DNA from: a virus
Length of the DNA: 31,380 nucleotides
Reading direction: 5' to 3' (one strand)
IMG/VR virus record: IMGVR_UViG_3300021371_000068
Coordinates: 1 to 31,380 of that record
Both the position numbers and the translations under genes were made by a program. The notes beneath the pieces are model-generated. The model was given only the letters and a program-made list of their open reading frames with translations, made no database searches and was not told the origin of the DNA. Of the stretch, positions 11,790 to 27,996 are shown piece after piece; positions within the stretch are counted from its first letter, which is position 1; every line of letters starts with the position of its first letter.

Positions 11790-12841
11790 TACTCATCACT
11801 ATCTTCTCCATATATACGTTTAGCACTTTGTAGTCTTTTTTGTAATAGTTTTTGATCATCAGTCTCAGTATTTTTATCATTCCATTTACTAAAACTAGAA
11901 AGTATATTTGACCAAGTTACTGTTGTATCAGTTATATTGTTCCTATCATTTTCAGCTTGATGTGTGCCTGCTGATGCATTTTCTTTAAGTTTAGATCCTG
12001 ATAATTGTACGTACTTTTGTAAAATTTTATTACGTTGTTTTTTAAGATGTGAAATTTTTGTGTTGGTTAGATACAATGTATTGTAATAAGCATTAGCCCA
12101 TGCCTTAAACGGATCACACATGTCATTTACGTCACCTATATGATGAGAAACGTGCTTAATACGGATATTTTCACCAGCTTTTATTTTAGCAAAGTATTCT
12201 TTAGTGATATATTGTACAGATTGGTCAGCATATATTAATCCCGTACTGTGATGTGCTACATCAAACATATAGATATCATAATCGTCAGTGGGTGAAAACT
12301 CTAAGTCACTATAATTATGTATAGTAACATCTCCATCAATTAGCCATAAATTATCCTCTACATCCATGAGTTGGTTGTACACTGATTTCATGTTTTCTTT
12401 GTTTCTTATGATATGACATGGACGTTCAATTGTGCTAAGTTTAGTAAACTTTTTAAGTGCATGTCTATCATTAAATGAATACACATACATTGGAACCACT
12501 TTACCTCTATATGATGCAATCCGGTTAGCATGTATGGTTTCAGATTCTGAAGTTGCAGATGTAGGAACAAGTCTTAATGCATCCCAACTAATTGGTCGCT
12601 TACTTCTTTCTACACACATTGGAAATTCGTGTATTTTATGTCTATTTTCATGCTCAGGAGTAAAGTTCCAATTGAATGTTTTTAATATAGTACGTTTTTT
12701 ATTTTTTAGCCAAACATACGGATATCTGTCACGATATTGATTTGCAACAGAAACATCTTCCATGTCATCTACATCAATAATTGGATATCTGTTCCATTTA
12801 GATTTTGTAATACTAAAAGCAGTCTGTATATTCGAAAACAT
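11750..12841 (-). CDS. Glycosyltransferase-like phage protein (GT-A type, tentative)
   Basis: This 363-residue protein has a central segment DNLWLIDGDVTI (163-174) with a D-G-D that looks like the metal/nucleotide-sugar DxD motif of GT-A enzymes. YDIYMFDVAHHSTGLIYADQ (188-207) follows, and then CDPFKAWANAYYNTLYL. The order resembles a phage family with a DADN-like motif and a later aromatic NPVNGL-type segment, usually annotated as glycosyltransferase-like. The C-terminal 100 residues are Lys/Gln/Asn-rich and probably helical; they do not belong to the fold. The gene starts one base after the stop of a second glycosyltransferase gene, so the two are almost certainly co-expressed. A role in glycosylating virion proteins or host surface glycans is inference. 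Its 3' end overlaps the Nudix gene on the other strand. Confidence 0.55.
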   Translation of the reverse strand: MFSNIQTAFSITKSKWNRYPIIDVDDMEDVSVANQYRDRYPYVWLKNKKRTILKTFNWNFTPEHENRHKIHEFPMCVERSKRPISWDALRLVPTSATSESETIHANRIASYRGKVVPMYVYSFNDRHALKKFTKLSTIERPCHIIRNKENMKSVYNQLMDVEDNLWLIDGDVTIHNYSDLEFSPTDDYDIYMFDVAHHSTGLIYADQSVQYITKEYFAKIKAGENIRIKHVSHHIGDVNDMCDPFKAWANAYYNTLYLTNTKISHLKKQRNKILQKYVQLSGSKLKENASAGTHQAENDRNNITDTTVTWSNILSSFSKWNDKNTETDDQKLLQKRLQSAKRIYGEDSDEYQKLSSQLVKSSL

Positions 12842-13435
12842 TTATTGAAAATCCTTTGTTTTAATACCCATGGTTGATAAATGAGCACATTGATTACTTA
12901 ATTGTGGATCAATCCAGATATCATAATCGTATTGTTGTAGTTGTTCTGAAAAATAAACATCTTCTCCCATAAAGACATCATTCTCATAATCCCAACTTAC
13001 TTTAAACCATGGGTGTGGTATTTGATTATACACTTCTATATCTGTTAGCATAATACCCATACCAACAGCATGTACTTTATATAGTTCATTACAATGCGTA
13101 TGTGGAAGATAATTTTCATCCATTGCAACGTTACGATATGGTTGTGTACGTGTACTATATGTTCCAGCTACAACTGGCTTCTGATGTGCAGACAATGTAT
13201 GGTATATATTAGACGGGAACACCATGTCACTATCTAACCATAGTATTTGATTACAGTTAGCTCTTTGTGCATCTAATACTAATTGATATCGTTGGTTTTG
13301 TATTAAACTACCGTTTTCAAAAAACAAATGATATTGTACATGATTACGAACTAAATTAGCAGTTAATTGAGATAAGCAGAAAGCAAAATTACTATGACAT
13401 ATATCACGTACAGGAACACATATTCCTAACAACAT
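12842..13435 (-). CDS. Family 2-type glycosyltransferase-like protein
   Basis: This short (197-residue) GT-A fold protein begins with the usual first strand LLGICVPVRD. The DxD motif lies in ILWLDSDMVFP (64-74), where D68 and D70 would bind metal and nucleotide-sugar. The acceptor-side acidic motif is GEDVYFSEQL (157-166), followed by a late His (H185) near the C-terminus, as in related phage and bacterial enzymes. It lacks any membrane segment, so it would act in the cytoplasm on a soluble acceptor such as a fibre protein, DNA or a sugar-lipid head group. It lies two bases after the unknown 145-residue gene and directly before the second glycosyltransferase-like gene. The donor and acceptor are unknown. 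Confidence 0.75.
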   Translation of the reverse strand: MLLGICVPVRDICHSNFAFCLSQLTANLVRNHVQYHLFFENGSLIQNQRYQLVLDAQRANCNQILWLDSDMVFPSNIYHTLSAHQKPVVAGTYSTRTQPYRNVAMDENYLPHTHCNELYKVHAVGMGIMLTDIEVYNQIPHPWFKVSWDYENDVFMGEDVYFSEQLQQYDYDIWIDPQLSNQCAHLSTMGIKTKDFQ

Positions 13436-13437
13436 AG

Positions 13438-13875
13438 TTACATCATATTTTCAGGAACAACATCATCTTGTTGTACAGATTTTTCTACATTTTTTACTTC
13501 ATGATTAAGTTGGCTTGCAATAATCGTGCTACGTTTAACACAATCTTTAAACCATTCATCGCCCAAGCACGTCATGTCAGTCATAGTTTCTGTACTTACT
13601 TTTCCAGTTGACAATAATTCAACAGCACTCCGTTTAGCAAGAACCTCAACATAATATTTGATTTCTTCTTCATCACTAGTAAACGACAGTTGTGACTTAT
13701 CGTATTCAGATTCTAGTCTCTTCTTTGCCATCTTTAGGGTTTTAATACGTGATTTATTCTTGCGCCAAAATGGAACACTAGTTGCATCAGCAATGTCTTG
13801 ATTAACTTTACTATATTTTGCTGCGGGGGTTAGACATCTGCCTAAGACAAATGTACTATATTCAAATTCAGACAT
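13438..13875 (-). CDS. Uncharacterised 145-residue protein
   Basis: I do not recognise this protein. It is mostly hydrophilic and probably helical. A basic stretch (RKNKSRIKTLKMAKKRLE, about 38-55) is followed by an acidic one (TSDEEEIKYYVEVL). It lacks a signal peptide and membrane segments. The ATG has an AGGAG site seven bases upstream. Its stop lies two bases before the glycosyltransferase gene, so it may be a partner or a small virion protein co-expressed with the sugar-transfer genes. Confidence 0.7.
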   Translation of the reverse strand: MSEFEYSTFVLGRCLTPAAKYSKVNQDIADATSVPFWRKNKSRIKTLKMAKKRLESEYDKSQLSFTSDEEEIKYYVEVLAKRSAVELLSTGKVSTETMTDMTCLGDEWFKDCVKRSTIIASQLNHEVKNVEKSVQQDDVVPENMM

Positions 13876-14109: not shown

Positions 14110-17100
14110 TTACTTTCCTAAAATGTCTTTCATAAGTTTTTCTAGGGTGTCTAATCTGTTACTCATGTCTTCAATAGTTTTATTTTTCTCAAGTATCATT
14201 TGTTTTTGATCTTCAATCCAATAACTTTGTGTTTTTACAGCTTCAATGAGTAGTGGTGTTAGTTTTTCATAACGTACCGCATAGTAACCGTTCTCACGTT
14301 GTTCAACTAATTCTGGCATGACTTTCATTACTTCTTGAGCAATAACACCAGCTTCACGTTTGTTTGCATCTTTGCCTATAATAGCTGCTGTTTCTTCACG
14401 CCAATCAAACATAACACCATGTAGTTGCTGAATCTTATGTACAGCATCTTCAATAGTATTGATATTAGTTTTAAGTCTTTCATCTGAACTATAGTAAGCA
14501 GTAACATCTCCAGTAAAGTATCTGTTACCTGGCTGATACACACGAATGTATTTCCATCCATTAATGTAACATGCTCTAGTTCCACTATAGTGACTATAGT
14601 TCCACAATGCTTGTGGTGTAAAGTATTTTGAACCTGTTTCAAACTGTCCTACACTATTACCAAATCCTGTGATATAAGCACTTTCTTTTCTATAATCTCC
14701 AGCACCACGTCTTGTATTTGACATGATCCAGTAACCATAACTACCAGGGTTACCACCCAAATTGTTGTAGTTATATCCGTAATCAATACTACCACAATAG
14801 TGTGCTACATCGCCAACGTTTTTAACCCAAACTTCACCGTAAAAGTAATCTGTCTGTTCTATTGGAATAAATGGGAAGCCAGAGGTATATACTCCACCAA
14901 CACTTACGCCACCATTAATATATATACTGCCGCCGCCCATATCTGACTGATTATTCCAGCTAACACTGGTACTATTGAAATAAGATTGTAGTTGCTTAGT
15001 GGACCAAGTATTATCCATAGCAAATACAGTTTCTCCTGGTGTGTAGTGTCCTAGTGGATAAGTTCCGCTATTGCCATTCTGTTGTGTTGCCATAGGCGAA
15101 TGCATAACAGTACGCTTATCATTAGTATTAGCGTAGACTGCGTGTATTGTGTTACCGCCATTGTCTATGGTTAATAAAGCTGAACCGGTATTCATATACC
15201 ATCCGATATCGCCATTTGCTGTAATTGTTAATCTAGCTTTACTAACACCGTCAGCATAAAAATCAAATAACCTGTTGCTGTTATTTGTATGATCAGCACC
15301 AACGTCTATTCTATTCATATAGGATAACGCATATCCACCATTGCCACCTGATATTGCTATAGTTGGATTTTGTCCTGCACTAACACTATTAGCACCATTA
15401 ATAGCTATTCTTCCGTTACCGCTGCTATCGCCCCAGGCATCTTTACCATCACTGTTTGTAGTAAATGACGCATCTGTTCGGAAGTTGGTGGATCCGTTAT
15501 ATATTATTTTACTACCTCGGCCTCGCATATATGTGCCGTCTGTCATATACCAGCCGCCACCCCAGCCAAAGCCAATTTCTTCATCTCTCATAAAACTAGC
15601 TGCGCCACGACCAAAAACAATAGCATCATTGTTGTTTAGTAACTGTATAGAACCGTTTATGTGAAGTTTATTATTACTTATTGTGCTAATAACAGAAGGA
15701 TTATCATTTGTAGTGTAGCTAATTGCTGTTTGACCGATACATACGTTTCCATCCATATCAATACGCATACGCTCTGAAAAATCAGTTGAACTGTCTGATG
15801 TTCCATTTGTATAAAATGCCAATCCGGATTTAAAGTAGTTGCCTTCACCAATCTGTAAAATACCAGCACTGCGTTTTGTATAGCTGGCCCAACGTGGTTC
15901 CCATATAATACCAGTACCTACTTCATTACTATCATTCGAACTAGCACCATTTCTAACACCAAAACGAAGTTTATCTTGTGGAGTAGTATCGACACCATCT
16001 GCTAAATCTAGTCTATGTTGTGGGCCTGCTGAACCGCCTACTTGTAATGATCCAGTAATATATGTGGTTGCATCTACTTTTAGATATGAATTTACTTCCA
16101 CGCTGTCAGTCTGAGCATTTATTTTCAGCATATCTTTGCCAGGTGTTCTAGCATAAAATCTATAGTAATCGGCTGAGGTTGTTGAGTTATAATGACTGCC
16201 TACTCGCCATTTATTATTTGACTCGCTAGTACCAGCATGGTAATGTAAAAGTTGATTCCACTTACCGTCTTGTGCGTGTAATTCTACATAGCCATAACCT
16301 TGAGAGTTTTCACCGCCGCCGATATCTCCAACGATCATACTGCTGTTTATACCTTCACCAAACGCATCATCAGATCTAACTCTTAGTCCTTCTGCTCCAG
16401 TAACACGAACTCCGCTACCAGTACCAGTTTTGCCTGCTTGTAGATATAAGTCACTTGTGCTTGTAGTTCTAATAGTTACATTATAATCACCGTCATCGTC
16501 GCCATCGTTACCAATGTTAATGGCATTTGCTTGTATACCATTTGTAAATACACTTCTTAAACTAGCAGTAATGCCGCCAGTTACATCAAGTTTTGTTCCT
16601 GGATTTGTTTTACCAATCCCTACATATCCGTTACTACCTGTTATACTAAGTATGTCAGCACCTTGTGTCCAACTATAGATTTGGAAAATGTCAGTGCCGT
16701 TTCCGTATCCAACACGAGTTTGCCATTTGAGTGCACCGTTAATTTTATATCGATAATGTGTTTGTCCTACTGCATCAGCAGTTACACCAGTATAAAATGC
16801 ACCGCTAGTGCTTGTGTTAGTAACATTGATACCAGTATATGGCTCTGCAGGTAAATTTGAATGAACAACATCTAATCTTGTATTTGGCGCATCTGTACCA
16901 ATACCAACACCATTATTACCAGTAGGTATAATTCTGTATGTACTACCACTACGCATTAATACTGGATAGCTGTGTATTCCAATTTTTGTAACTGTTGCAT
17001 CACTTTCTCTAACTTTTGTAAACAAGTTAGCATCGTTAATGTCGTTGTATAGTTCTCCTTCAAAGTAAAAACGATTAGATACATTGCCGCCGCCACTAGA

Positions 17101-19080
17101 ACTAACTCTTAGCGCATAGTATCTAACACCAGATATTTCAATTTCATCCAAACTAGTAAACATACTAGCTGGGCCTTCAAATGTTTGGAATAGGTTAGTA
17201 TTGTACGAAGAAACCATATTAATACGCATACGATATGGTTCGTTTCCAGATCCTGTGTTACCACGAGCAAATATAATTTCACCGTTCATGCCACTCGACT
17301 GAACTGTACCAGTTACAAATTTTCTCATTACAACGATATATTCGTCGGTTATGCCACTGGCACCTCTGCTAACATTTGGTAACTTGAAGTATGAATATTT
17401 TCCACTAACCCCAACTTTTACATCGCCGTTTACATCCAATACAGCATCAGGACTTGATGTTTCGATACCTATTTTATTTTCATTTACATATAATGTATCT
17501 GCTCCACCTGCTCGTAATACCATTTGGTTATTACTGTGTTGGTAACGAACATATCCACTATTACTACCTTCTGTATCACCAAATGCCAAATATTGATAAC
17601 TTGTGTTAGGTGAGAAAATATTAATACCTGTGTTACCACTGCCTTCAACAATAATTGTATCATGTGCACTGTTTGTTGTAATACTTCCAGCATCACCATC
17701 TTTAACATGAAGTTTACCCAGTGGTGTCATTTCACCTATACCGAATCGACCATCATGTGTCATAACCATCTTATAACCAGTTGATGATGAACTGGTACCC
17801 GCATTAGTTAAGTGAAATCCTAGATTGTTATCGTTTGCGCCGCCAGCAGTACCTTGCGCAATAAGGCTCCATTTTACACCTGTGTTAGTAGAGTGCATAG
17901 TAAACCCAGAACCTGTGCTAGTGTTACTAACCAAGTTAGTAGTGTCCCATGTAGTACCATCGTAAACTGTTAATTTAGTAGCCGGTGTCTGTGTACCAAT
18001 ACCTACGTGTTTATCGCTACCTTTAATACGCATAACTTCGGCTGTACTACCATCATTAAGCGGACTAAAAATAATATCTTTACTGCCACTAGAACCGCCA
18101 ATGAATAGATGGACGTTTGCGCTCCATGCTGCTAATTGTATATCACCAGTTCCACCAGCATCGTAAGCAAACTTTGCGTTCCAGTTGGCATTGGTAGTAC
18201 CTACATGCATTTGTGTGCCATGTAAGGCAACCATTGGACTTGTACCAGTATAAACTGCAAAATCAGCATTACCGCTATTATTATTTGCTCCATTAAATAA
18301 TACAGTACCACGTACATCTAATTTAGCACCTGGATTAGTTGTACCAATGCCTACATCACCAGTACCTTCAATTGTCATCCACTGTGCGCTTAAACTGATA
18401 TCATTATCTGTACCTAGTTCAGTAGTTGTACCCCATACAAACCTATCAGTAGTTTCTTCCCACATAAAGACTGGGTTATAATTACTAGAAGTTGGACTGC
18501 TATAACGTTGAAATAATAATCCAATGTCGTTGAGTGGTGTTGCTTGTCCATGGTTAAGTGTTAATACAGCATCTTTTACAAGTGTATTTGTTGTGTTTAA
18601 TGTAGTAGTTGTACCACTAACTGTTAAGTCACCGGAGATAGTTGCATCACCAGTAACACTAAAATCTTGGTGACTTTGTGTTAATCCATCACCAATAGTG
18701 ATTCGAGCAGTTGAACTACCAACTCTTCTTAAGTTTAAATCTTCATCATGTGATCTTATTTCACCACTATCTACATGTATCTCTGTGTTGAAATAATACT
18801 TGGATCTATCAGTGTAAAAATGAGTGTATGTACTGTTAGCAGAACCAATGTTAGTGTAACCTGAAGTGGTCTGTATTTTTAAGTAATCACCATCGTCACT
18901 TAGGGTTGGGCTACTATCACCAAAGTCAAGTGTGCCGACTCTTACATTTCCAAATAAGGCATCATTATTGTTACTTAAAACTTCAGTGTTATCTATATGT
19001 AAAGTACCACCAACAATGTTGACTGTACCATCATCATAAATTTGTAGTACACCATCGATGTTACTGACTAGATTTGCCAT
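14110..19080 (-). CDS. Giant tail fibre with C-terminal Peptidase_S74 self-cleaving chaperone
   Basis: This 1656-residue fibre carries several copies of a G-[IV]-G-x-x-x-P-x-x-K-L-x-V unit (for example VGIGTTNPGAKLDV, VGIGTQTPATKLTV, VGIGKTNPGTKLDV), usual in S74-type fibres. The C-terminal 126 residues are the Peptidase_S74 intramolecular chaperone: SSDERLK (1531-1537) has the catalytic Ser1532 and Lys1537 spaced as in the family. AGVIAQEVMKVMPELV follows, and the end is a coiled coil that helps trimerise the fibre and is then cut off. Near residue 180-230 lies a segment (NDIGLLFQRYS, SNYNPVFMWEE) shared with the second S74 fibre at the right edge. The ATG has a GAGGAA site and a consensus late promoter 26 bases upstream. 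It is predicted to bind host surface structures; the receptor is unknown. Confidence 0.9.
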   Translation of the reverse strand: MANLVSNIDGVLQIYDDGTVNIVGGTLHIDNTEVLSNNNDALFGNVRVGTLDFGDSSPTLSDDGDYLKIQTTSGYTNIGSANSTYTHFYTDRSKYYFNTEIHVDSGEIRSHDEDLNLRRVGSSTARITIGDGLTQSHQDFSVTGDATISGDLTVSGTTTTLNTTNTLVKDAVLTLNHGQATPLNDIGLLFQRYSSPTSSNYNPVFMWEETTDRFVWGTTTELGTDNDISLSAQWMTIEGTGDVGIGTTNPGAKLDVRGTVLFNGANNNSGNADFAVYTGTSPMVALHGTQMHVGTTNANWNAKFAYDAGGTGDIQLAAWSANVHLFIGGSSGSKDIIFSPLNDGSTAEVMRIKGSDKHVGIGTQTPATKLTVYDGTTWDTTNLVSNTSTGSGFTMHSTNTGVKWSLIAQGTAGGANDNNLGFHLTNAGTSSSSTGYKMVMTHDGRFGIGEMTPLGKLHVKDGDAGSITTNSAHDTIIVEGSGNTGINIFSPNTSYQYLAFGDTEGSNSGYVRYQHSNNQMVLRAGGADTLYVNENKIGIETSSPDAVLDVNGDVKVGVSGKYSYFKLPNVSRGASGITDEYIVVMRKFVTGTVQSSGMNGEIIFARGNTGSGNEPYRMRINMVSSYNTNLFQTFEGPASMFTSLDEIEISGVRYYALRVSSSGGGNVSNRFYFEGELYNDINDANLFTKVRESDATVTKIGIHSYPVLMRSGSTYRIIPTGNNGVGIGTDAPNTRLDVVHSNLPAEPYTGINVTNTSTSGAFYTGVTADAVGQTHYRYKINGALKWQTRVGYGNGTDIFQIYSWTQGADILSITGSNGYVGIGKTNPGTKLDVTGGITASLRSVFTNGIQANAINIGNDGDDDGDYNVTIRTTSTSDLYLQAGKTGTGSGVRVTGAEGLRVRSDDAFGEGINSSMIVGDIGGGENSQGYGYVELHAQDGKWNQLLHYHAGTSESNNKWRVGSHYNSTTSADYYRFYARTPGKDMLKINAQTDSVEVNSYLKVDATTYITGSLQVGGSAGPQHRLDLADGVDTTPQDKLRFGVRNGASSNDSNEVGTGIIWEPRWASYTKRSAGILQIGEGNYFKSGLAFYTNGTSDSSTDFSERMRIDMDGNVCIGQTAISYTTNDNPSVISTISNNKLHINGSIQLLNNNDAIVFGRGAASFMRDEEIGFGWGGGWYMTDGTYMRGRGSKIIYNGSTNFRTDASFTTNSDGKDAWGDSSGNGRIAINGANSVSAGQNPTIAISGGNGGYALSYMNRIDVGADHTNNSNRLFDFYADGVSKARLTITANGDIGWYMNTGSALLTIDNGGNTIHAVYANTNDKRTVMHSPMATQQNGNSGTYPLGHYTPGETVFAMDNTWSTKQLQSYFNSTSVSWNNQSDMGGGSIYINGGVSVGGVYTSGFPFIPIEQTDYFYGEVWVKNVGDVAHYCGSIDYGYNYNNLGGNPGSYGYWIMSNTRRGAGDYRKESAYITGFGNSVGQFETGSKYFTPQALWNYSHYSGTRACYINGWKYIRVYQPGNRYFTGDVTAYYSSDERLKTNINTIEDAVHKIQQLHGVMFDWREETAAIIGKDANKREAGVIAQEVMKVMPELVEQRENGYYAVRYEKLTPLLIEAVKTQSYWIEDQKQMILEKNKTIEDMSNRLDTLEKLMKDILGK

Positions 19081-19106: not shown

Positions 19107-19114
19107 TATTTATA
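19107..19114 (-). promoter_or_regulatory. Consensus T4-type late promoter for the giant S74 fibre
   Basis: On the minus strand this reads TATAAATA, an exact T4 late consensus, 26 bases before the fibre ATG. It overlaps the stop codon of the transporter gene (19110-19112), so the fibre is expressed independently of the accessory block upstream. Confidence 0.8.
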
Positions 19115-20150
19115 GCATTAGAGTTAAAGCGCCTGCTGTAATCACTAACATTCCCCAAATGCCTAATATAGTAACATAATATCTAAACTTGGTTCCGAAG
19201 TATAACATACCGATTGCAACACATTTATGCATTGGACTAATTAAGTAACCAACAAAGTCAACTGCAAAAAACCAAGGCAGATATGCAATACCGTATATAC
19301 TGGCCATGATTACTGTAAGTGCACCAAATCGACTACTGCTACCTAATGCAAATGCACCAGCAAAACTTGCAAGACTTAGCATTGTAAATCCACTCCAAGT
19401 ATTGATATCTAGTCCACTGTTTTCTAAAAATTCTTTGATTGCACTAGTGTTTTCTCTAGCAATATTTGCTGCAACGATAATAACAGCAACCCATCCGATT
19501 AGTTTCCAGTCTACAGAACGTAATAATTTTGGAATATCAAATGTGCGAGTAACTACCATATAGTATAGTGTAAGAGTACCAAATGCCCATAAAAAATTAA
19601 CACCTGCAATTATGGCGCCAACGCCTGTTACATAAGGTAATACATAACGTGTTATACGACTTACTTTAATTTCTCTTTCACAATCATTGAGTTCAACATC
19701 ACTTTCTTTTACACCCCAAACAAGATAAGAGATAATAAATGCAATGCTCACAGCCAGTAATGGCCAAATGTAGCCCATAAATTGTGTGTAAGTTAAACCT
19801 AGCACCGCCATTGGAAGAATAACTGTCTTTTCCAGTGGGCTCCAAAAATAATAATGGTGTGTGCTTACATAGTCAATAGGTCCAAACTTTTCTCGACCAC
19901 AACAACCTTTATCGGGTGCAAGTGTGTCTAACATGCCAGCACTAACTGTAACACGACCTTTGATAGGTAGTAGTCCTGTTAGTGCACTTACAATAGCAAC
20001 TACCGCTTTCTTACTTTTTAAATTCTGTTCAAAGAAACAGAAGATGTCGTCGAATAATCTATGTTCTTTTACCATGCCTGCAATCATCATTACAAATACG
20101 ATTAGGAACAAGTATACTTGTCCGTTTAATGCTAAGTCTATGTACTCCAT
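19110..20150 (-). CDS. Multi-pass membrane protein, DUF401-like transporter
   Basis: This 346-residue, strongly hydrophobic protein has about nine or ten membrane segments (for example 11-27, 48-62, 109-146, 168-200, 215-231, 253-297, 324-345). It would sit in the host inner membrane. Two segments fit what I remember of DUF401, a poorly characterised permease-like family. One is LTGLLPIKGRVTVSAGML (57-74), corresponding to the LLPxPGGxxxSAP loop, followed by an aromatic-rich HHYYFWSPLE. The other is GYLISPMHKCVAIGMLYF (301-318), corresponding to the SPxHLC...YF motif. The substrate is unknown. The start forms a TAATG overlap with the preceding gene, and its AAGAGGAAA site lies inside that gene's last codons. 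A transporter is not a usual tail-module gene and stands out here. The family call rests on motif memory only. Confidence 0.68.
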   Translation of the reverse strand: MEYIDLALNGQVYLFLIVFVMMIAGMVKEHRLFDDIFCFFEQNLKSKKAVVAIVSALTGLLPIKGRVTVSAGMLDTLAPDKGCCGREKFGPIDYVSTHHYYFWSPLEKTVILPMAVLGLTYTQFMGYIWPLLAVSIAFIISYLVWGVKESDVELNDCEREIKVSRITRYVLPYVTGVGAIIAGVNFLWAFGTLTLYYMVVTRTFDIPKLLRSVDWKLIGWVAVIIVAANIARENTSAIKEFLENSGLDINTWSGFTMLSLASFAGAFALGSSSRFGALTVIMASIYGIAYLPWFFAVDFVGYLISPMHKCVAIGMLYFGTKFRYYVTILGIWGMLVITAGALTLML

Positions 20151-20875
20151 TATTTCCTCTTAAAATGTTTGTAATATGCATTTTGTATTTTTGATTTTAT
20201 GTGTATAAAACCTATGTTGTCAAAATACTTTCTTTTTTCTAACCATTCAAGATCATGTTTTGTTGCATCACGAACTTCATGCTTATACTTTTTTTCTGTT
20301 ATTGGTATTAATTGTGCAAGTGGCGTACCCGCTTTAATTATATGTACACCTTGGGTGTTCCAATATCCTTGTAAATTAATATCACTACTTATACTAGGGT
20401 CAAGTATACCTTGACAACATTCAAATATCATATTTTCATTATAAGGTAATGGCATCATCATAAACTTTACATCGCTAACAATTTGCCAAGGCGTGTTTAT
20501 TTTTAGTATGTGTGGATTACTCCATGGACGTTTTGGTAAAAACTTACCAATACTGTCTCCACGCTGAACTTGTAGTGTGTCTTTACCCAATATATCATTT
20601 AGTGTAACACTTGGCATACTCATGTTAATACGAGTTGCATCTGCTTGCACTTCAATATCATGCCAAGCATGTATAATATATCCTGTTGTTAGTATGTCAA
20701 CAATACCAGGACATCTTGCAATATGTACATCGTGTTTCTTCTGTTGATAATCAGCTCGTGCTAATGCTACCCACTGTGGCAAGGTGTTACGAGCAGTTGT
20801 TATAGGGTATGCTTCAGTTAAGCCTTGTACTTTGCTGAAAAACTCTATTTTAGTCGACTTGGTTAAACCTAACAT
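20150..20875 (-). CDS. Conserved phage/marine protein of unknown function
   Basis: I recognise the style but not the function of this 241-residue protein. It has HIARCPGIVDILTTGYIIHAW (from about residue 51), a Pro/Trp-rich middle (FLPKRPWSN, NTPWQIV), MMMPLPYNEN, and near the end IKAGTPLAQLIPI. Similar proteins with CPG, a GYIIPLW-like stretch and a GTPxxQxIP motif recur in marine phages and bacteria without a known reaction. The pattern suggests a beta-rich, cupin-like fold, but this is a guess. The N-terminus overlaps the 2OG oxygenase gene by 26 bases and the C-terminus overlaps the transporter start, so translation is coupled on both sides. Membership of the same cassette suggests a shared pathway. 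Confidence 0.75.
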   Translation of the reverse strand: MLGLTKSTKIEFFSKVQGLTEAYPITTARNTLPQWVALARADYQQKKHDVHIARCPGIVDILTTGYIIHAWHDIEVQADATRINMSMPSVTLNDILGKDTLQVQRGDSIGKFLPKRPWSNPHILKINTPWQIVSDVKFMMMPLPYNENMIFECCQGILDPSISSDINLQGYWNTQGVHIIKAGTPLAQLIPITEKKYKHEVRDATKHDLEWLEKRKYFDNIGFIHIKSKIQNAYYKHFKRK

Positions 20876-21443
20876 TATATACTATATTGATCCTATTTCT
20901 ATTGCTTTTGTTTATTTCAACTTCATGTGGCATCCAACTTGGCCATACAATTAAATCACCATCCTGTGGATCAAAGCTAAATGTATTCATAAACGGACTA
21001 AGCACGTTACATGTTAGTAATGTATTAGCTGGGTTTAATAAATTAAGAGAACCAGTGTCAGTTCCTTGTATATAATAAACTGCACTAAAGTTCCACTTTT
21101 CATGTGTATGTAATTTATTAATACTGCCTGGTTGGTTTACATTAGTCCAACTATCTATTTCAGGCGGGCCAAACTGTTTTATTTTGTTATTGTAAGTTGG
21201 ATCGTGTTCCAAGTAATATCCAACTGCTTTGTTAATCGTTTCCTTGAGTTTTTGTTCTAACCAATCCGAGTTGTTGTAAGATATCTTACTGCGCCAACAA
21301 CCATCATTACTCATACCAATTTGTGGATGATTAGGATTATTATAGGCTGCTAATGTTTGCTGTAGTAAATCATCACGCTGCAACTCAGTGCCGCAGTTAT
21401 GTTCGATAAATGCATCACTTTGTACTAATTTAACTTGGTTCAC
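20850..21443 (-). CDS. 2-oxoglutarate/Fe(II)-dependent oxygenase
   Basis: Enzymes of this type use 2-oxoglutarate, O2 and Fe(II) to hydroxylate proteins, nucleic acids or small molecules. The core motifs are visible: LHTHEKWNFSAVYYIQG (111-127) with H112/H114 as iron ligands, GDLIVWPSWMPHEVEIN (162-178) with H173 as the distal ligand, and R184 in NRNRINIVYNVRF to bind 2-oxoglutarate. This pattern fits the TIGR02466-type family common in marine phages. The length of 197 residues is normal. The start is a GTG at 21443, because the first in-frame ATG is 43 codons further in; the gene overlaps the preceding fusion gene by 14 bases. The substrate is unknown. Its place next to the U32/methyltransferase fusion suggests successive modification steps. 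Confidence 0.85.
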   Translation of the reverse strand: MNQVKLVQSDAFIEHNCGTELQRDDLLQQTLAAYNNPNHPQIGMSNDGCWRSKISYNNSDWLEQKLKETINKAVGYYLEHDPTYNNKIKQFGPPEIDSWTNVNQPGSINKLHTHEKWNFSAVYYIQGTDTGSLNLLNPANTLLTCNVLSPFMNTFSFDPQDGDLIVWPSWMPHEVEINKSNRNRINIVYNVRFNQVD

Positions 21444-23052
21444 GTTGTACTACCAAAATATAAAGACCATTCCACCATTGTGTAGGATTTTCTACATTAT
21501 TAGTTATAACACGGTGGTTAATAACTGTCAAGCCAGCATTTTGTATACCTTGATTAGCACCACTAACTACACCTTGCCAATTAAAATCATCAAACACAAG
21601 TATAGCAGTATCAGCAAGTGTGTCTGCATAATATTCAACTGCTTGTGCGGTTGTAATTTCATCATGTGGTCCGTCATAAAAGAACAAGTCAATGTCATTT
21701 AGTTTGCTTTTATCTACCGCAAATAAATCACTGTCATGAATAGTAATATTGTCGCCACTTACATTTTTATCAAACTCTTTTTTTGTATTATTTGGTAGTG
21801 CAAAAACATCTAGTTCAGGCTGTATATTTTCTTCCCATTTGTCAACACAATGTATTTGAATATCATTGTTTTGAGCAACGGCGGCGGCGGTTGCTCCCAT
21901 AGCACTTCCTATCTCTAGATAATTGTTACAGTGTTTACTCAATCCATATAGTAAATTTTGTACTCTTGGACTAGTTAATCCCATAATATTAATATTGTTC
22001 TCATAGTTAACACTATCAACTAATTCTTTTGCAACTGCTAATGTATATGGATTAGTTTTAATTGGAGACTTCGCTTCGTATACTAGATCACAAAAATTAC
22101 ATTCCCAACAATCAAATTTACAATTTTTAATTTTTTTACGCCAGGCATCAATTGGTCTGTCTTTTAAATTTGTATCTTCAAGATAAGTGTTAAACGTGTC
22201 AAATAATATTTCTTCATTACGTGCATAACGTTGTACAATACTCAGCGTATTAAAAAACTGTTCAATACTCTCTCTACCATGCATTTTAAACACATCAACA
22301 TAATCTAATAACTCTACCCAATCATCACGCCAAGGTGGAATATTTGCTGTTTTTAGTGCAGTACTTGGATCTTCCACACTCCACTTTTCACAGGTACTAC
22401 GACTAATTGGATCAGCAAAGTATGTAGGTGAATCTGGTGCTCTGGTGTTGTTAAACTGAAAATGTTCATCCATCATAGTACAACCACCCAAACAACCTTC
22501 GTTTCCTAATAGTGCAATTTTTACACCAAACTTGTCTGCTGCTCTGCGTATTTTTTCTAGTGCATCTCTATCCCGCATTAAGTCACGATCGATGTTGATG
22601 TAATTGAATCCTGTTTTAGCTAAATTAGCTACTTCATTTGGATGTGTGACATTGCGCAAGATAGTATTTTTAATAAACAGTTCTGGAAACTCTTTTTGTA
22701 TTTGTCCAGTGCTTAACCAATGAGTATGCGGTATAGTAGCACTACGCACGCCTGCATCATATAACTGACGGAAATTTGCTATAAACAAGTCTAAGTTTGC
22801 TTGATCAGGTCTAATAAGTGTATTATTAAATGTGGCACTGATTGGTATACCAGTTCTTTGTTGTATATACAATGCAGCGTCTATTGGTGCGCCAATATCT
22901 TCAAATACATCTCCCATTGCGTCTTGAACAAACGGAGGCATACGACAAGTAAAGTACAAGTCATATATATGCTCTCGGTATTGCTCAAGGAAACTTACAA
23001 AACTATTGAATTGATTTTCGTTGAGTTTTAGGTTAATTGGTATACTGAACAT
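21430..23052 (-). CDS. U32-like Fe-S protein fused to a SAM-dependent methyltransferase
   Basis: This is a two-domain protein of 540 residues. Residues 1-330 resemble the U32 ('peptidase U32') TIM-barrel family. They include GNEGCLGGCTMMDEHF (183-198, C187 and C191), C221, DVFKMHGR (253-260), and a Cys cluster NCKFDCWECNFC (310-321, C311/C315/C318/C321) that could hold an Fe-S cluster. Residues about 350-540 are a class I methyltransferase: SAM loop LEIGSAMGATAA (379-390), acidic D404, DLFFYDGPHDE (455-465) and ILVFDDFNW (484-492), as in Methyltransf_24 proteins. Known U32 members act in RNA hydroxylation or in O2-independent ubiquinone hydroxylation rather than proteolysis. A fused hydroxylase-methylase is therefore plausible, but the substrate is unknown. 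The start forms TAATG with the upstream gene and the 3' end overlaps the oxygenase gene. Confidence 0.75.
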   Translation of the reverse strand: MFSIPINLKLNENQFNSFVSFLEQYREHIYDLYFTCRMPPFVQDAMGDVFEDIGAPIDAALYIQQRTGIPISATFNNTLIRPDQANLDLFIANFRQLYDAGVRSATIPHTHWLSTGQIQKEFPELFIKNTILRNVTHPNEVANLAKTGFNYINIDRDLMRDRDALEKIRRAADKFGVKIALLGNEGCLGGCTMMDEHFQFNNTRAPDSPTYFADPISRSTCEKWSVEDPSTALKTANIPPWRDDWVELLDYVDVFKMHGRESIEQFFNTLSIVQRYARNEEILFDTFNTYLEDTNLKDRPIDAWRKKIKNCKFDCWECNFCDLVYEAKSPIKTNPYTLAVAKELVDSVNYENNINIMGLTSPRVQNLLYGLSKHCNNYLEIGSAMGATAAAVAQNNDIQIHCVDKWEENIQPELDVFALPNNTKKEFDKNVSGDNITIHDSDLFAVDKSKLNDIDLFFYDGPHDEITTAQAVEYYADTLADTAILVFDDFNWQGVVSGANQGIQNAGLTVINHRVITNNVENPTQWWNGLYILVVQREPS

Positions 23053-23777
23053 TATAAATTAAGTGATGAGTTTTGGTTGGTTCCGAATTCGTCAAACATT
23101 TGTTGTACTGGCATTTGTAAATCATACCTATTATGTAATAAACGGTTACAGTCTGGAATGGTTTGACATGATTTAATTTCTTGTTCAACAGCCTGTTTTT
23201 GTGATAGTAAAGTAGCTACTTTTAAATTATATTCATCAACTGCACTGTTAACTTTGTTAACCATTTCTTGTAGTGTAATACCACGAGCTGTTGCAAGTAA
23301 TTGTAACATTGGTGCATTAGGTGATTCAGGATTAAAGGATTCAGCTTCGGCTCGCTGTTGTGCCCAACTACTAGCTTCAAGATCGCTGGTTGTCAAATTT
23401 AATCCTTGCTGTCTTTTGTCATAAACTTCATCTAGCCATTTACGCATAATTGCTTTCATTAGTTTTACTGTGTTTTGTTTTTCTGTATCTGACAAATAGT
23501 ATTTTTGTTTGTACACCATTTCTTCTTCACTGGCCATCAAATCAAGCTGTTCCATCTGTACAGTATTATCTTTAACAGTTATAAAGTCTCGATACTCACC
23601 TATAAACTTCCAAGCCTTTGCAACATTATCATCTAGAACAGTCGGATTGAGATGTTGGTATTCTAAAATATCAACATGTGTTTCAGGAATATATCCAATA
23701 GTCCATAAAGTCCATTCGCCATAGTGAATAATATTACGCTGTGTTTTTTCATCAACTTTCTTAAATAAAATATACAT
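23052..23777 (-). CDS. Tail-fibre-assembly-like chaperone (DUF4376-like C-terminus, tentative)
   Basis: This 241-residue protein has an N-terminal beta-type part (YILFKKVDEKT, WTLWTIGYIPE). Its helical C-terminal half reads SWAQQRAEAESFNPES, then APMLQLLATARGITLQEMV and LLSQKQAVEQEI. This succession (W-x-x-Q-x-x-E-A-x-x-[FW], a Pro-x-L-x-x-x-A-x-A-R-G-I helix, and a final Q-[KR]-Q-A-[LV]-E helix) is characteristic of phage tail-fibre assembly proteins, many carrying DUF4376. Such proteins help fibres fold or attach. It lies downstream of the three adhesin genes and the second S74 fibre, a fitting place for a fibre chaperone. An AAGGAAG site precedes the ATG. The assignment rests on pattern memory. 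Confidence 0.55.
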   Translation of the reverse strand: MYILFKKVDEKTQRNIIHYGEWTLWTIGYIPETHVDILEYQHLNPTVLDDNVAKAWKFIGEYRDFITVKDNTVQMEQLDLMASEEEMVYKQKYYLSDTEKQNTVKLMKAIMRKWLDEVYDKRQQGLNLTTSDLEASSWAQQRAEAESFNPESPNAPMLQLLATARGITLQEMVNKVNSAVDEYNLKVATLLSQKQAVEQEIKSCQTIPDCNRLLHNRYDLQMPVQQMFDEFGTNQNSSLNL

Positions 23778-23779
23778 GA

Positions 23780-24550
23780 TTAATCTTCCTTTGTCAAGCC
23801 TAATAAGGCTCTATATGGTGCGCTGGTAATACCTTTTTGCGCCATTTCATTTGCATTACTTAAATGCATTTGCAATCTTTGTTCATTTCTTACAAGATAT
23901 TCACTGGCAAGTTGTAATGTTGCTTCTTGTTGTCCTGGTGACATCATTGCAATTGCATCCATGTTACCAACACCAATACGCCCGTATGCTACCATATCCA
24001 TAGCTGCTTGTTTTGCCAATCTGTATGTCCAGTGTTGTGCTTCTAGTTTTTCAGACACTTCTTTATCACCGATTACATCAATTAGCAACCTACCATCTTC
24101 ATATTTTCCTTCAGGTGTTTGATTAAATTTTTCAATAAGATCAAGATATGTTTGTCTTTCTTCATATGCTGCTTTTAATTTATGAAGTAATTTTTTATAA
24201 TTGCGATCTTCATGTTCGATATCTAAACTAATGTCTTCAAGATCAAAACCTGATAATTTCTCTGCTTCTGTTTTTAGACGATTTAACTTTACTTTACATT
24301 TTTTAGTATCGTATTCCATTTGCTCAATTACGTCTTCTCTACTAGAAATTTCTAACATGTACTGTTTAACTTTTGCATATGGTGTAATTTGTGCATTGCC
24401 AACAAAATTCTCTGCTTTAAAAGCAGGCAATCCATTTCCATTACTAATACTTTTACTAATAATGTCTTGATGTTCAACACTCATATCTGTCGTATCTGTA
24501 ATTAAATCTGTACGACTGTATGTTGTTAAATCTGTTACTTCGTTTTTCAT
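23780..24550 (-). CDS. Uncharacterised coiled-coil protein
   Basis: I do not recognise this 256-residue protein. Residues about 60-165 are heavily charged with heptad-like spacing (EDVIEQMEYDTKKCKVKLNR, then LKTEAEKL, LHKLKAAYEERQTYLDLIEK), indicating a long coiled coil. The C-terminal part (KQAAMDMVAYGRIGVG, then MMSPGQQEATLQLASEYLVR) looks like a compact helical domain. No membrane segment or signal is seen. The gene lies between the adhesin triplet and the chaperone-like gene with short spacing and an AAGGAT ribosome site. A role as an adhesin partner, tail-tip connector or assembly factor is possible. Confidence 0.7.
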   Translation of the reverse strand: MKNEVTDLTTYSRTDLITDTTDMSVEHQDIISKSISNGNGLPAFKAENFVGNAQITPYAKVKQYMLEISSREDVIEQMEYDTKKCKVKLNRLKTEAEKLSGFDLEDISLDIEHEDRNYKKLLHKLKAAYEERQTYLDLIEKFNQTPEGKYEDGRLLIDVIGDKEVSEKLEAQHWTYRLAKQAAMDMVAYGRIGVGNMDAIAMMSPGQQEATLQLASEYLVRNEQRLQMHLSNANEMAQKGITSAPYRALLGLTKED

Positions 24551-24561
24551 TCTTTATCCTT

Positions 24562-25698
24562 TTAACCTTTCCATACACAGTGACCGCTTGATCCACCAGC
24601 AGGGCCAGTTCTTACACTTCCTGCTCCCAGTGTTGCGCCTGACTCTGTTTGGTAATAAAACTTCCATCCAATGTTGTTTTGTGCACCGTTATACATTCCC
24701 ATCATGTACTGGTGGTGTTGTCCCATATCAAAGTTTTCTTCACCACTGTTGCCAACTGGCTTAGTGACAGTTCCTATGTTTTGTCCTGTGTTGTATTGTG
24801 TTTTACGTAAATTATACCCACCAGAATAGTTTCCTTCATTACCTGCGAAACCTATTCCGTGCTTACTACTTATGCCTTTTTGTTGACTACTGGAGCTACG
24901 GGCAATATCAGTTTCAACAACTGCGGTTTGGCTTGCTGAAAAATTAATTCTGTATCCAGCAGTCGCATGCCATGCATAACCTTCATATTCTCCACTATGC
25001 GATGACATACCGTTTTGTCTAGTTCCACCACCTGTAGCAGTTGTTAAACTTTGTGCAGCATACATTGTATTATTTGTAAAGTTGAATACATCTATATTGG
25101 ATTGACCGCCACCACATATATACGCATATTCGTGTTCTTTGAATACAGTTGCGCAATCATTTCTACTATAAAGTAGTGTAGGACAATCTCCAGCAACTAA
25201 TCCTGTTTCTGTGAACATATTAATACCACTAGTAGTTGTGCTCGCAGTACTGTGTGTGTTATTGGCATTCCAAATATAACCGTAAGTTAGCCCGCAGCCA
25301 CCGCTACTGTAACTCCCCTTTGTATGTAATAAGTCTCCTAAATTAACTGTTAAATCTGTTTGGTGATTCATACTGTTAACATTTAGCCATGGCACACCAC
25401 TTTGATATCCGCCCATTACATAGCTTTTTGTAATGATTTGTCTAAATAAAAACTGTCTTTGCTCTTGACTAACTTGCCGCCATTCACTACCATCATATAG
25501 TTCCATGGCTTTTGTTTTATCATTAAAATATACTTGCCCTTGTACTGGACTACCTGGTCTTGATGTAGCACCTGCAACACCGCTTGCTACATTAGTGTTT
25601 CCTCTACTTTGCCAAGTTGTTCCGTCCCACTCCCAAACTTTGTTATCATGTACATGCATTTGTCCTACACTAGGACCACCTGGAAAACTTATTGCCAT
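24562..25698 (-). CDS. Adhesin-like virion protein, paralogue C of a tandem triplet
   Basis: This 378-residue protein starts with MAISFPGGPSVG, typical of small virion proteins of marine T4-like phages. A Trp-rich N-terminal module (WEWDGTTW, then GQVYFND and LYDGSEWRQVSQ) is followed by a large domain with repeated Gly-Gly strands: YVMGGYQSG, YAYICGGGQSNIDVFN, EGNYSGGYNLRK. This spacing suggests a kelch-like beta-propeller. SRNDC, NVNSMNHQTDL and GNSGEENFDMGQ are shared with its two neighbours. It ends GGSSGHCVWKG. The start overlaps the stop of paralogue B as TAATG. I infer a receptor-binding or baseplate-decorating protein; no enzyme motif is visible. Confidence 0.72.
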   Translation of the reverse strand: MAISFPGGPSVGQMHVHDNKVWEWDGTTWQSRGNTNVASGVAGATSRPGSPVQGQVYFNDKTKAMELYDGSEWRQVSQEQRQFLFRQIITKSYVMGGYQSGVPWLNVNSMNHQTDLTVNLGDLLHTKGSYSSGGCGLTYGYIWNANNTHSTASTTTSGINMFTETGLVAGDCPTLLYSRNDCATVFKEHEYAYICGGGQSNIDVFNFTNNTMYAAQSLTTATGGGTRQNGMSSHSGEYEGYAWHATAGYRINFSASQTAVVETDIARSSSSQQKGISSKHGIGFAGNEGNYSGGYNLRKTQYNTGQNIGTVTKPVGNSGEENFDMGQHHQYMMGMYNGAQNNIGWKFYYQTESGATLGAGSVRTGPAGGSSGHCVWKG

Positions 25699-26840
25699 TA
25701 GCTACCACTCCATCCACAATGTCCACTAGACCCGCCAGGAACACCAGTTCTAATACTACCAGCACCCAATTCATAGCCGCTGTCAGTATAATAACTAAAC
25801 TTCCAACCACGATTATTTTGTACACTATTTCCATACATTCCTAGCATATATTGGTGATCTTGTCCCATATCAAAATTCTCTTCTCCGCTGTTACCAACAG
25901 GCTTTGCAACATTACCTATATTTGTTTCTGTACTAAATTGCCAGCGTCTTAAATTGTAACCACCTTGATATGTTCCTTCATTACCAGCATAACCTTTACC
26001 TACTTTACTGTTAATACCTTTCTGTTGGCCATTAACACCACAGACACTGCTCGTAGATATTGCCGCAGTTTGGTTTGCTGCAAATGTAAATTTGTTTCCT
26101 GCGCCATTAGGATAAACATATCCTGCTGCTTCACCGTTTATGCTTCCCATGCCATTGTTTGTGCCGCCTGCACTAGCTGTTGTCATACTTTGTGCAGCAT
26201 ACATTGTATTATTTGTAAGGTTAAACACATCAACATTTGTTGTTCCACCACCGCAAATATAAGCATATTCTGTTTCTTTAAATGCAGTTCCACAGTCATT
26301 TCTCGAATACAGTAATGTTGGATTTCCAGTAGCAACACCCGTTTCTGTAAACATATTAATACTGGCAGTTGTAGTGCTTGCAGCATTATGTGAATTATTT
26401 GCATTCCAAACGTAGGCATAAACTTTACCACATGCACCACTTGCATAACTTGCTTTTGTTGCTAGCAAATCTCCCAAGTTTACCATTAAATCTGTCTGGT
26501 GGTTCATACTGTTAACATTATACCATGGACTACCTGACTGATATCCACCCAGAACAAAACTCTTGGTAATAACTGTTCTGTGTAAATATTGTCTATTATC
26601 CTGACTAACAGCTACCCATTCTTCACCATTAAACATTTCCATAGTTTTATTGAGATCATTATAGTAAACTTGTCCTGAAACTGCAACGTTATTGGCCGGA
26701 CGATTACTTAATGTACCAATAAATTGTATTTCATGATCGCCACCAACTTGATTCCAGCTGACACCATCCCAATACCAACGTAGTCCATTATGTGTATGAA
26801 TTGCGCCAACGCTGGGCGATCCTGGAAAACTTATAGCCAT
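25698..26840 (-). CDS. Adhesin-like virion protein, paralogue B of a tandem triplet
   Basis: This 380-residue protein has the same architecture as its neighbours: MAISFPGSPSVG, a Trp module (WYWDGVSWNQVG, GQVYYNDLNKTMEMFNGEEW), then the propeller-like domain (FVLGGYQSG, YAYICGGGTTNVDVFN, EGTYQGGYNLRR). It ends GGSSGHCGWSGS. I start it at the ATG at 26840, not at a TTG four codons upstream, because the GGAG ribosome site six bases before the ATG overlaps that TTG. It is the only member of the triplet with its own late promoter directly upstream. Compared with A and C it replaces the AGDCPT stretch with a shorter ATGNPT and has different loop residues, consistent with altered specificity. Confidence 0.72.
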   Translation of the reverse strand: MAISFPGSPSVGAIHTHNGLRWYWDGVSWNQVGGDHEIQFIGTLSNRPANNVAVSGQVYYNDLNKTMEMFNGEEWVAVSQDNRQYLHRTVITKSFVLGGYQSGSPWYNVNSMNHQTDLMVNLGDLLATKASYASGACGKVYAYVWNANNSHNAASTTTASINMFTETGVATGNPTLLYSRNDCGTAFKETEYAYICGGGTTNVDVFNLTNNTMYAAQSMTTASAGGTNNGMGSINGEAAGYVYPNGAGNKFTFAANQTAAISTSSVCGVNGQQKGINSKVGKGYAGNEGTYQGGYNLRRWQFSTETNIGNVAKPVGNSGEENFDMGQDHQYMLGMYGNSVQNNRGWKFSYYTDSGYELGAGSIRTGVPGGSSGHCGWSGS

Positions 26841-26862
26841 ATTATACTCCAATAACTACGTA

Positions 26863-26870
26863 TATTTATT
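26863..26870 (-). promoter_or_regulatory. T4-type late promoter before adhesin B
   Basis: On the minus strand this reads AATAAATA, 22 bases before the adhesin B ATG, with the GGAG ribosome site in between. It overlaps the stop codon of adhesin A (26869-26871). It would drive B, C and the genes downstream. Confidence 0.6.
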
Positions 26871-27996
26871 AGCCTTTCCAAACGTTGTGTCCACTACTAC
26901 GCCCAGCAACACCAGTTGGCTCGCTTCCTGCTCCCAATACTGTGCCACTATCTGTTTCATAATACCACTTCCAAGTATTGTTGTTTTGTGCACCATTATA
27001 ATGACCTGTGCAGTATTGATGATACTGGCCCATATCAAAGTTTTCTTCACCACAGTTACCTTGTGGTTTAGATACATTACCTATATTTGTTTCTGTACTA
27101 AACTGCCAGCGTCTAAAGTTATATCCGCCGCTATACGATCCTTCGTTGCCACACCAGCCTTTTCCTAATTTACTGCTGACGCCTTTTTGCTGACTATGTG
27201 CTCCAGTAACACTGCTTGACGCAATTGTTGCTGTCTGGGTTGCCGCAAAAGTAACTTTATTACCAACGCCGCTGTCGTGCCAAGCAAAACCTTTATCTTC
27301 ACCGCTAAACGCACCCGCATATCCAGAAGCCTGTGAAGTTAAACTTTGTGCACCGTACATTGTATTTGTAGTTAAGTTAAACACATCTACAGAGGATTGG
27401 TTGCCGCCAATAATCCAAGCGTACTCGTGTTCTTTGTGTACTGTACCACAGTCATTTCTTGAATACAATAGTGTAGGACAGTCGCCTGCAACTAATCCTG
27501 TTTCTGTGAACATGTTAATGCCAGCGGTTGTTGTGCTGGCGGCGGCATGTGTGTTATTGGCATTCCATATAAATCCATAAGTTAGTCCACATGCACCGCT
27601 ACTATAGTTTGCTTTTGTATGTAGTAGATCGCCCAAGTTAACACTTAAATCCGTTTGGTGATTCATACTGTTAACATTATACCAAGGACTACCTGACTTG
27701 TAGCCTCCCATAGTAAAACCTTTAACGATTACTTGTCTATGTAAAAACTGACGTTCATCCTGACTTACATAACGCCATTCATCACCGTCATACATTTCCA
27801 TTGTTCCTGAAAAGGTATTAAAAAATATTTGTCTATTAACAGGATTGCTGGGCCTAGTGCTTCCTGTAGGAATGTATGTCATTGTAACACCATTCTCGTC
27901 ATAGGCTTCCCAACTGGTGCCGTCCCATTGCCACTTAAATCCATTATGATTGTGTATTGCCCCTACACTAGGACTACCTGGAAAACTAATTGCCAT
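26869..27996 (-). CDS. Adhesin-like virion protein, paralogue A of a tandem triplet
   Basis: This 375-residue protein has the same start (MAISFPGSPSVG), Trp module (WQWDGTSWEAY, RQIFFNTFSGTMEMYDGDEW) and propeller-like body (FTMGGYKSG, YAWIIGGNQSSVDVFN, EGSYSGGYNFRR) as the next two genes. It ends GRSSGHNVWKG, so the Cys of the SSGHC ending in B and C is replaced by Asn. Several blocks (GLVAGDCPTLLYSRNDC) are closer to C than to B. The start overlaps the stop of the S74 fibre as TAATG, so it is translationally coupled to a fibre whose tip it may decorate. Confidence 0.72.
   Translation of the reverse strand: MAISFPGSPSVGAIHNHNGFKWQWDGTSWEAYDENGVTMTYIPTGSTRPSNPVNRQIFFNTFSGTMEMYDGDEWRYVSQDERQFLHRQVIVKGFTMGGYKSGSPWYNVNSMNHQTDLSVNLGDLLHTKANYSSGACGLTYGFIWNANNTHAAASTTTAGINMFTETGLVAGDCPTLLYSRNDCGTVHKEHEYAWIIGGNQSSVDVFNLTTNTMYGAQSLTSQASGYAGAFSGEDKGFAWHDSGVGNKVTFAATQTATIASSSVTGAHSQQKGVSSKLGKGWCGNEGSYSGGYNFRRWQFSTETNIGNVSKPQGNCGEENFDMGQYHQYCTGHYNGAQNNNTWKWYYETDSGTVLGAGSEPTGVAGRSSGHNVWKG

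Follow-up and report, generated by a model that had tools for sequence, protein, structure and literature searches.

The window analysed here (IMG/VR IMGVR_UViG_3300021371_000068; 31,380 bases from an uncultured virus) carries four overlapping genes between tail-fibre genes. They encode a fusion of a U32-like domain and an O-methyltransferase (U32/MT), a 2-oxoglutarate (2OG)-dependent oxygenase, a protein with a predicted dUTPase fold, and a permease. Neighbourhood comparisons show that the U32/MT gene belongs to a fixed unit, fibre–phrog_1409–phrog_1604–U32/MT, and that the other three genes are accessory parts, as are halogenase, sulfotransferase and DUF6445 genes in relatives. With U32/MT always standing behind the same fibre set and followed by exchangeable enzymes and a transporter, this arrangement suggests chemical decoration of the host-recognition fibres in T4-like phages of marine and fresh waters. 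That the cassette is a locus modifying the adjacent tail-fibre proteins is, in our estimate, a proposition with slightly less than an even chance of being right.

Gene neighbourhoods were counted on IMG/VR from permease, U32/MT and dUTPase-fold anchors, together with a fourth sample taken from the P-HM2-type lineage. Genes were labelled with iterated profiles, built at E 1e-5 and called at 1e-5 to 1e-4; single labels can err, and the fibre profile may span several fibre families. The pooled U32/MT loci formed 31 clusters at 65% identity, and in 31/31 of them genes for the fibre, phrog_1409 and phrog_1604 stand upstream, which agrees with the link to fibres proposed in an initial annotation of the window. 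The P-HM2-type sample gave 45/45 for fibre, 55/55 for phrog_1409 and 49/49 for phrog_1604. Among 50,697 cultured-phage records, U32/MT and phrog_1409 each match 123, with identical name and host breakdowns (the breakdowns were compared, not the full lists), and the fibre protein (phrog_1417) matches 101. Cultured phages exist both with and without the U32/MT core. Because the cultured relatives are all phages of Synechococcus or Prochlorococcus, we read the virus of the window as related to the T4-like cyanophages.

Linkage of the accessory genes depends on the lineage. Around the dUTPase-fold anchor (60 distinct loci), U32/MT is nearby in 54/54 testable loci, phrog_1604 in 53/53, the oxygenase in 54/57, a fibre in 47/49, the permease in 40/51 and a halogenase in 19/32, and to this extent the conserved, linked gene set of the initial annotation is real. 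Close relatives retrieved with the U32/MT anchor have the permease downstream in all 49 testable cases, the oxygenase in 38/53 and the dUTPase-fold gene in 35/48. In the P-HM2-type lineage, by contrast, the permease was seen in only 1/22 loci and the dUTPase-fold gene in 1/21. Across the pooled clusters, the frequencies are 19/30 for the oxygenase, 21/30 for the dUTPase-fold gene, 17/28 for the permease and 9/28 for a halogenase, values that are raised by the choice of anchors. On these counts we reject the four genes as a closed unit, and the single pathway that had been envisaged for them is not supported: three of the four vary, and the fourth, U32/MT, belongs to the fixed unit with the fibre, phrog_1409 and phrog_1604. 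Independent occurrence, which had been named as evidence against the set, is seen for two of its members. The 65 distinct permeases have U32/MT upstream in 44/53 testable cases and a GMP reductase upstream in 10, and in S-CAM4 the permease is found ∼56 kb from U32/MT, beside other genes. The cultured cyanophages syn9, S-RIM44, P-TIM40 and S-CREM1 have the dUTPase-fold gene in their fibre region, behind tryptophan halogenases and ahead of 2OG oxygenases, and the stretches examined there carry no U32/MT label. No such independence was found for U32/MT and the fibres. In S-H25 and metaG-MbCM1, U32/MT is followed by the permease a few hundred bases on. The oxygenase gave no tblastn match among cultured phages at a cut-off of 1e-5, so the evidence for its linkage comes from profile searches, mostly of uncultured contigs.

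The four open reading frames (ORFs) are real and are placed exactly as first described, all on the minus strand: permease (19110–20150, 346 aa), dUTPase-fold protein (20150–20875, 241 aa), 2OG oxygenase (20850–21443, 197 aa) and U32/MT (21430–23052, 540 aa). Adjacent genes overlap by 1 base (20150), 26 bases (20850–20875) and 14 bases (21430–21443), and the transcribed order runs from U32/MT through the oxygenase and the dUTPase-fold gene to the permease. No stop-free run on the coding strand exceeded 131 codons in 200 base shuffles of the cassette stretch, so the ORFs are not due to chance, and all four products match families at significant E-values. The overlaps are kept in relatives (72/72 for U32/MT–oxygenase, 63/63 for oxygenase–dUTPase-fold and 38/49 for dUTPase-fold–permease, taking the first ATG, GTG or TTG as the start). 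The chain continues upstream, however, through phrog_1604 (23052–23777, minus strand, overlapping U32/MT by 1 base) and phrog_1409 (23780–24550, minus strand, 2 bases from the phrog_1604 gene), the two fixed partners, to three tandem fibre paralogues. The closest of these is the phrog_1417 fibre (24562–25698, minus strand); the second (25698–26852) and third (26869–27996), on the same strand, were recognized from their sequence, and all three are candidate substrates. Immediately downstream of the permease lies a large fibre gene (14110–19080, minus strand), whose predicted product has a C-terminal chaperone-like motif (SDERLKTN). In all, ten genes from 31313 to 14110 share one strand with gaps of ≤29 bases. 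Since the chain continues in this way and fibre–fibre junctions also overlap, overlap by itself is not enough to make the four genes a unit. Promoters and terminators are of no help for the cassette itself, with 36 promoter-like sites versus 27 ± 5 expected and 2 terminators versus 2.9.

The predicted model of U32/MT (mean pLDDT 89) divides into a U32-peptidase-like barrel (residues ∼1–330) and a COMT-like O-methyltransferase (∼349–540), in keeping with the original domain guess, and the protein matches phrog_1458 (8.8e-156) and Methyltransf_24 (2.5e-11). In fold comparisons, the N-terminal part aligns with the U32 peptidase MK0906 (5d88; Z 17.1, 221 residues, 3.0 Å), and in Foldseek other barrels, such as methylenetetrahydrofolate reductase, score about equally. 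The peptidase U32 model PF01136 matches neither the window protein, nor anything in the window genome (E ≤ 10), nor any of 19 family members. On the other hand, a profile of 30 family members, bacterial relatives included, aligns globally with true U32 proteins over 301 columns (hhalign probability 89.5%; E 2.3e-7, a single-profile comparison), with KMHGR paired to KIEGR. We therefore call this domain U32-like: by its predicted structure it has the barrel fold, and it falls outside the Pfam sequence model. Seven cysteines (Cys187, 191, 221, 311, 315, 318 and 321) are invariant in 39 sequences, and the motif KMHGRE is invariant as well. The C-terminal part resembles O-methyltransferases in its modelled fold (Z 17.6 to TomG, 16.4 to TrmR), and its candidate metal residues D460, D488, D489 and N491, whose metal role is putative, are invariant in 39/39; on both grounds it is predicted to be a COMT-like class I O-methyltransferase. 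In the Protein Data Bank (PDB), the family profile has a single sequence match, the O-methyltransferase YrrM/TrmR (E 0.0046); structurally, many O-methyltransferases tie. COMT-like domains methylate hydroxyl groups. The U32 proteins TrhP and RlhA have been linked to hydroxylation (PMC6599085), and for these two reasons U32/MT probably adds a hydroxyl group and then O-methylates it. No cellular source of the fusion emerged from a profile scan of genome contigs, as none of its three matches holds. One, in a contig binned in a Dehalococcoidia metagenome-assembled genome (L170), has the length (10,153 bases) and the U32/MT layout of a viral contig (L297) and is probably a misbinned phage fragment; another (L171) is cut off within the U32-like domain and adjoins phrog_1604/1409-like ORFs; and the third (L172) has no methyltransferase.

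The products of the accessory genes belong to recognizable families as well, and the initial calls of an oxygenase and a permease proved sound. The oxygenase (2OG-FeII_Oxy_5, PF13759, 1.9e-16; phrog_81) can be assigned to the 2OG-Fe(II) family TIGR02466 (2e-17), as judged by its passing the curated cut-off, narrowly (63.7 versus 62.5 bits), and by three histidines of iron-ligand type (His112, His114, His173) that are invariant in 28/28 sequences; Arg184 is present in 27/28. The 20150–20875 protein (phrog_7084, 1.6e-36) is related to DUF6065 and dUTPase. Since dUTPases came up in a sequence search of the PDB only as weak matches (E 1.2 and 2.1) ranked below unrelated chains, fold comparison was required. 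The predicted model (pLDDT 92.5) has a dUTPase fold: dUTPases fill the first 50 rows of Foldseek and of VIA except for two dCTP deaminase-dUTPase chains, with Z of 8–9 (best 9.1, 127 aligned, 3.2 Å). By eye, GILDP..SS and AGTPLAQLIP resemble dUTPase motifs III and IV. Unlike dUTPase and DUF6065 proteins, the family has its own invariant Cys55, Gly65 and Asp73; PF00692 (dUTPase) matches just 2/30 members (best 3.3e-4) and not the window protein, and the DUF6065 model matches two. We infer a role in binding or presenting. The permease (phrog_14035) is a full-length match to DUF401 (2.3e-11; 44.1 bits against a Pfam cut-off of 24), a model that matches 26/30 members, and we place it in this family on its sequence, although it falls far under the equivalog cut-off of TIGR00529. 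The citrate-transporter model CitMHS weakly matches 13/30 of its relatives (best 1.3e-5) and not the window permease, which hints at an organic anion as the substrate; no credible relative was found in the PDB by sequence search. A different group of viral contigs (L020, L025–L028, L035, L036, L038 and L071) has DUF401 permeases behind a GMP-reductase-like gene, and in L027 the permease precedes genes resembling small heat-shock protein, ClpS and heme oxygenase.

In relatives, the accessory slot holds halogenases, several 2OG oxygenases, a sulfotransferase (PF00685, 4.4e-13) and DUF6445. The halogenases are flavin-dependent tryptophan halogenases, judging from PF04820 (1.8e-99 for L029) and from motifs: among six aligned, the FAD motif GGG(T/S)SGW is present in 6/6 and a WxWxIP-type motif in 5/6, with GWCFTIP in L097. 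Halogenase and permease largely alternate (halogenase only, 16; permease only, 21; both, 3; neither, 2; Fisher p 8e-7, ignoring relatedness of the loci). The window resembles the halogenase and 2OG oxygenase runs of syn9, S-RIM44, P-TIM40 and S-CREM1 (PrnA and VirX1-type halogenases) in its oxygenase family, in its position among fibre genes and in the dUTPase-fold gene that there stands behind the halogenases; it differs in having U32/MT and a permease in their place. In S-CREM1, a protein annotated in the record as collagen-like precedes the halogenase and a series of 2OG oxygenases. Eight halogenase-type cassettes (L231, L233, L235, L236, L242, L245, L249 and L258) have an extra conserved gene of ∼140 aa (..KDxYxxRKxQKDR..) adjoining the dUTPase-fold gene.

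The U32-like domain also occurs without the methyltransferase in bacteria, in 5/398 genomes of a Campylobacterota-type order. PF01136 proteins sit elsewhere in four of these five genomes, so that the U32-like gene is an additional protein there. In one genome (G344; L187/L195), it adjoins a PF04820 halogenase (1.8e-92) and TolC-, HlyD- and M50/HlyD-like genes, possibly a cluster for surface-protein modification and secretion; a SecA-like protein, two kinase-like proteins and a SelO-like protein are encoded there as well. In another (L185), it lies beside a DUF6445 oxygenase and a radical-SAM/SPASM enzyme, and in a third (L172), between an RTX-like C-terminus and TolC/ABC/HlyD-type (type I secretion) genes. 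The TolC and HlyD names in L195 and the RTX, TolC, ABC and HlyD names in L172 were read from the sequence.

The strict tie to fibres, the oxidizing and group-transferring accessories and the secretion-linked bacterial neighbours point to a structural or surface protein as the target, most simply the adjacent fibre. What was computed here is the identity of the genes, their predicted folds, the conserved residues of active-site type, the linkage of core to fibre and the exchange of accessories; we infer which substrate is used, in what order the reactions run, what the permease does and how the phage benefits. The U32-type barrel, probably an iron-sulphur protein, would hydroxylate a side chain in the neighbouring fibre protein, in phrog_1409 or in phrog_1604, and the fused COMT-like domain would then O-methylate the new hydroxyl. 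The 2OG oxygenase may add further hydroxylations, with the dUTPase-fold protein presenting or binding the substrate without hydrolysing it and the permease bringing in an organic anion as co-substrate. Exchange of halogenases, 2OG oxygenases, DUF6445 and sulfotransferase could give each phage lineage its own fibre finish, which plausibly varies receptor binding. The fuller proposition is that fibres carry enzyme-made hydroxylation, methoxylation, halogenation and sulfation through an exchangeable set around a new U32-like/O-methyltransferase, and that related U32-like sets modify secreted surface proteins of bacteria; this we hold tentatively, at clearly less than an even chance.

Several points weigh against fibre modification. 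The permease is the weakest part of the account. Modification of a protein in the cytoplasm needs no permease, and the account gives no reason for the alternation of halogenase and permease. The substrates of the best-known U32 enzymes are RNA or quinone precursors, not proteins. Two of the five Campylobacterota-type genomes have uninformative neighbours (a Csm5-like gene and radA in L179; a small contig with tandem copies in L188), and more distant U32-like relatives in Chloroflexota adjoin reductive-dehalogenase-like genes. The latter loci (L197, L198 and L199) have twin-arginine-type starts on these dehalogenase-like genes. Finally, tail-fibre regions are known insertion hotspots, and for this reason the location of the accessory genes counts for little by itself.

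For a long time, cyanophage halogenases and 2OG oxygenase runs have been classed as auxiliary metabolic genes, with roles such as 2-oxoglutarate control and antibiotic protection put forward speculatively, and the published accounts consulted treat them singly rather than as a fibre-linked set (PMC3037559, PMC9964418, PMC2984593, PMC10452541). In a literature search covering few subscription journals, we found no paper that joins cyanophages with peptidase U32, no mention of DUF6445 or DUF6065, and nothing relevant on phage fibre modification. Each domain is of a known kind; the literature searched has no description of the fusion, of its fixed place or of the exchangeable set. The U32/MT–fibre tie and the shared accessory set point to chemically finished receptor-binding fibres as an alternative which, if true, would give host recognition by phages a further layer and bring a new U32-type enzyme that modifies proteins.

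Small-molecule metabolism, with the permease importing an organic acid or precursor and the enzymes making a hydroxylated, methylated or halogenated metabolite that aids infection, would account for the presence of a permease and for the weak CitMHS similarity of its relatives. It also has precedents in the proposals that 2OG oxygenases tune host 2-oxoglutarate (PMC3037559) and that the halogenase makes an antibiotic precursor (PMC9964418, PMC2984593), and in a marine viral halogenase that, according to the title of a Nat. Chem. 2019 paper, iodinates diverse substrates. We consider it unlikely: it gives no account of a core enzyme that never leaves the fibre module, the enzymes have no link to a recognizable pathway, and most of the P-HM2-type lineage lacks the permease.

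Another possibility is that only U32/MT is part of the fibre module and that the oxygenase, dUTPase-fold and permease genes are unrelated cargo gathered between fibre genes. Strong variation in accessory content from lineage to lineage and the other settings of the permease, beside GMP reductase and in S-CAM4, fit this explanation. The near-constant company of U32/MT and oxygenase around the dUTPase-fold gene does not, nor does the dominance of one kind of chemistry (oxidation, halogenation, sulfation) in the cargo or the recurrence of U32-like genes with halogenase and with DUF6445 in bacteria, and we rate unrelated cargo as rather improbable.

The known enzymes closest to U32/MT modify RNA. 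TrhP is a U32 protein required for 5-hydroxyuridine (ho5U), which TrmR methylates to 5-methoxyuridine (mo5U) (PMC6599085), and U32/MT shares with this pair the barrel fold, the full-length profile–profile match and a methyltransferase of the TrmR fold class. It differs in being a single-chain fusion, in its extra C-terminal cysteines, in its other cysteine spacing (invariant E185, C187 and C191 against E162, C170 and C177 in TrhP) and in its linkage to tail fibres rather than RNA-modification genes. On this basis U32/MT could be a fused TrhP–TrmR counterpart that hydroxylates a wobble uridine of tRNA at C5 and methylates it to mo5U, while the dUTPase-fold protein, as its fold might suggest, handles a uridine nucleotide; the TrmR sequence match of the family profile and the structural score to TrmR count in favour. 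We rank this reading last and think it quite improbable, since tRNA modification has no place for the strict fibre linkage or for halogenase, sulfotransferase and secretion genes, the methyltransferase matches Methyltransf_24 with no other Pfam methyltransferase family reported, and no tRNA genes were found in the window.

A second small module (11750–13875) lies past the large fibre, with a phrog_1409 paralogue (13438–13875), a glycosyltransferase-like protein (12842–13435; phrog_1574, weak Anp1) and a 363-aa protein without a family. Similar orders come after the permease in L012, L018, L019 and L021. A NUDIX-hydrolase-like gene (phrog_1198, 3e-24) occupies 11313–11789 on the plus strand, where it separates the tail genes from the fibre region.

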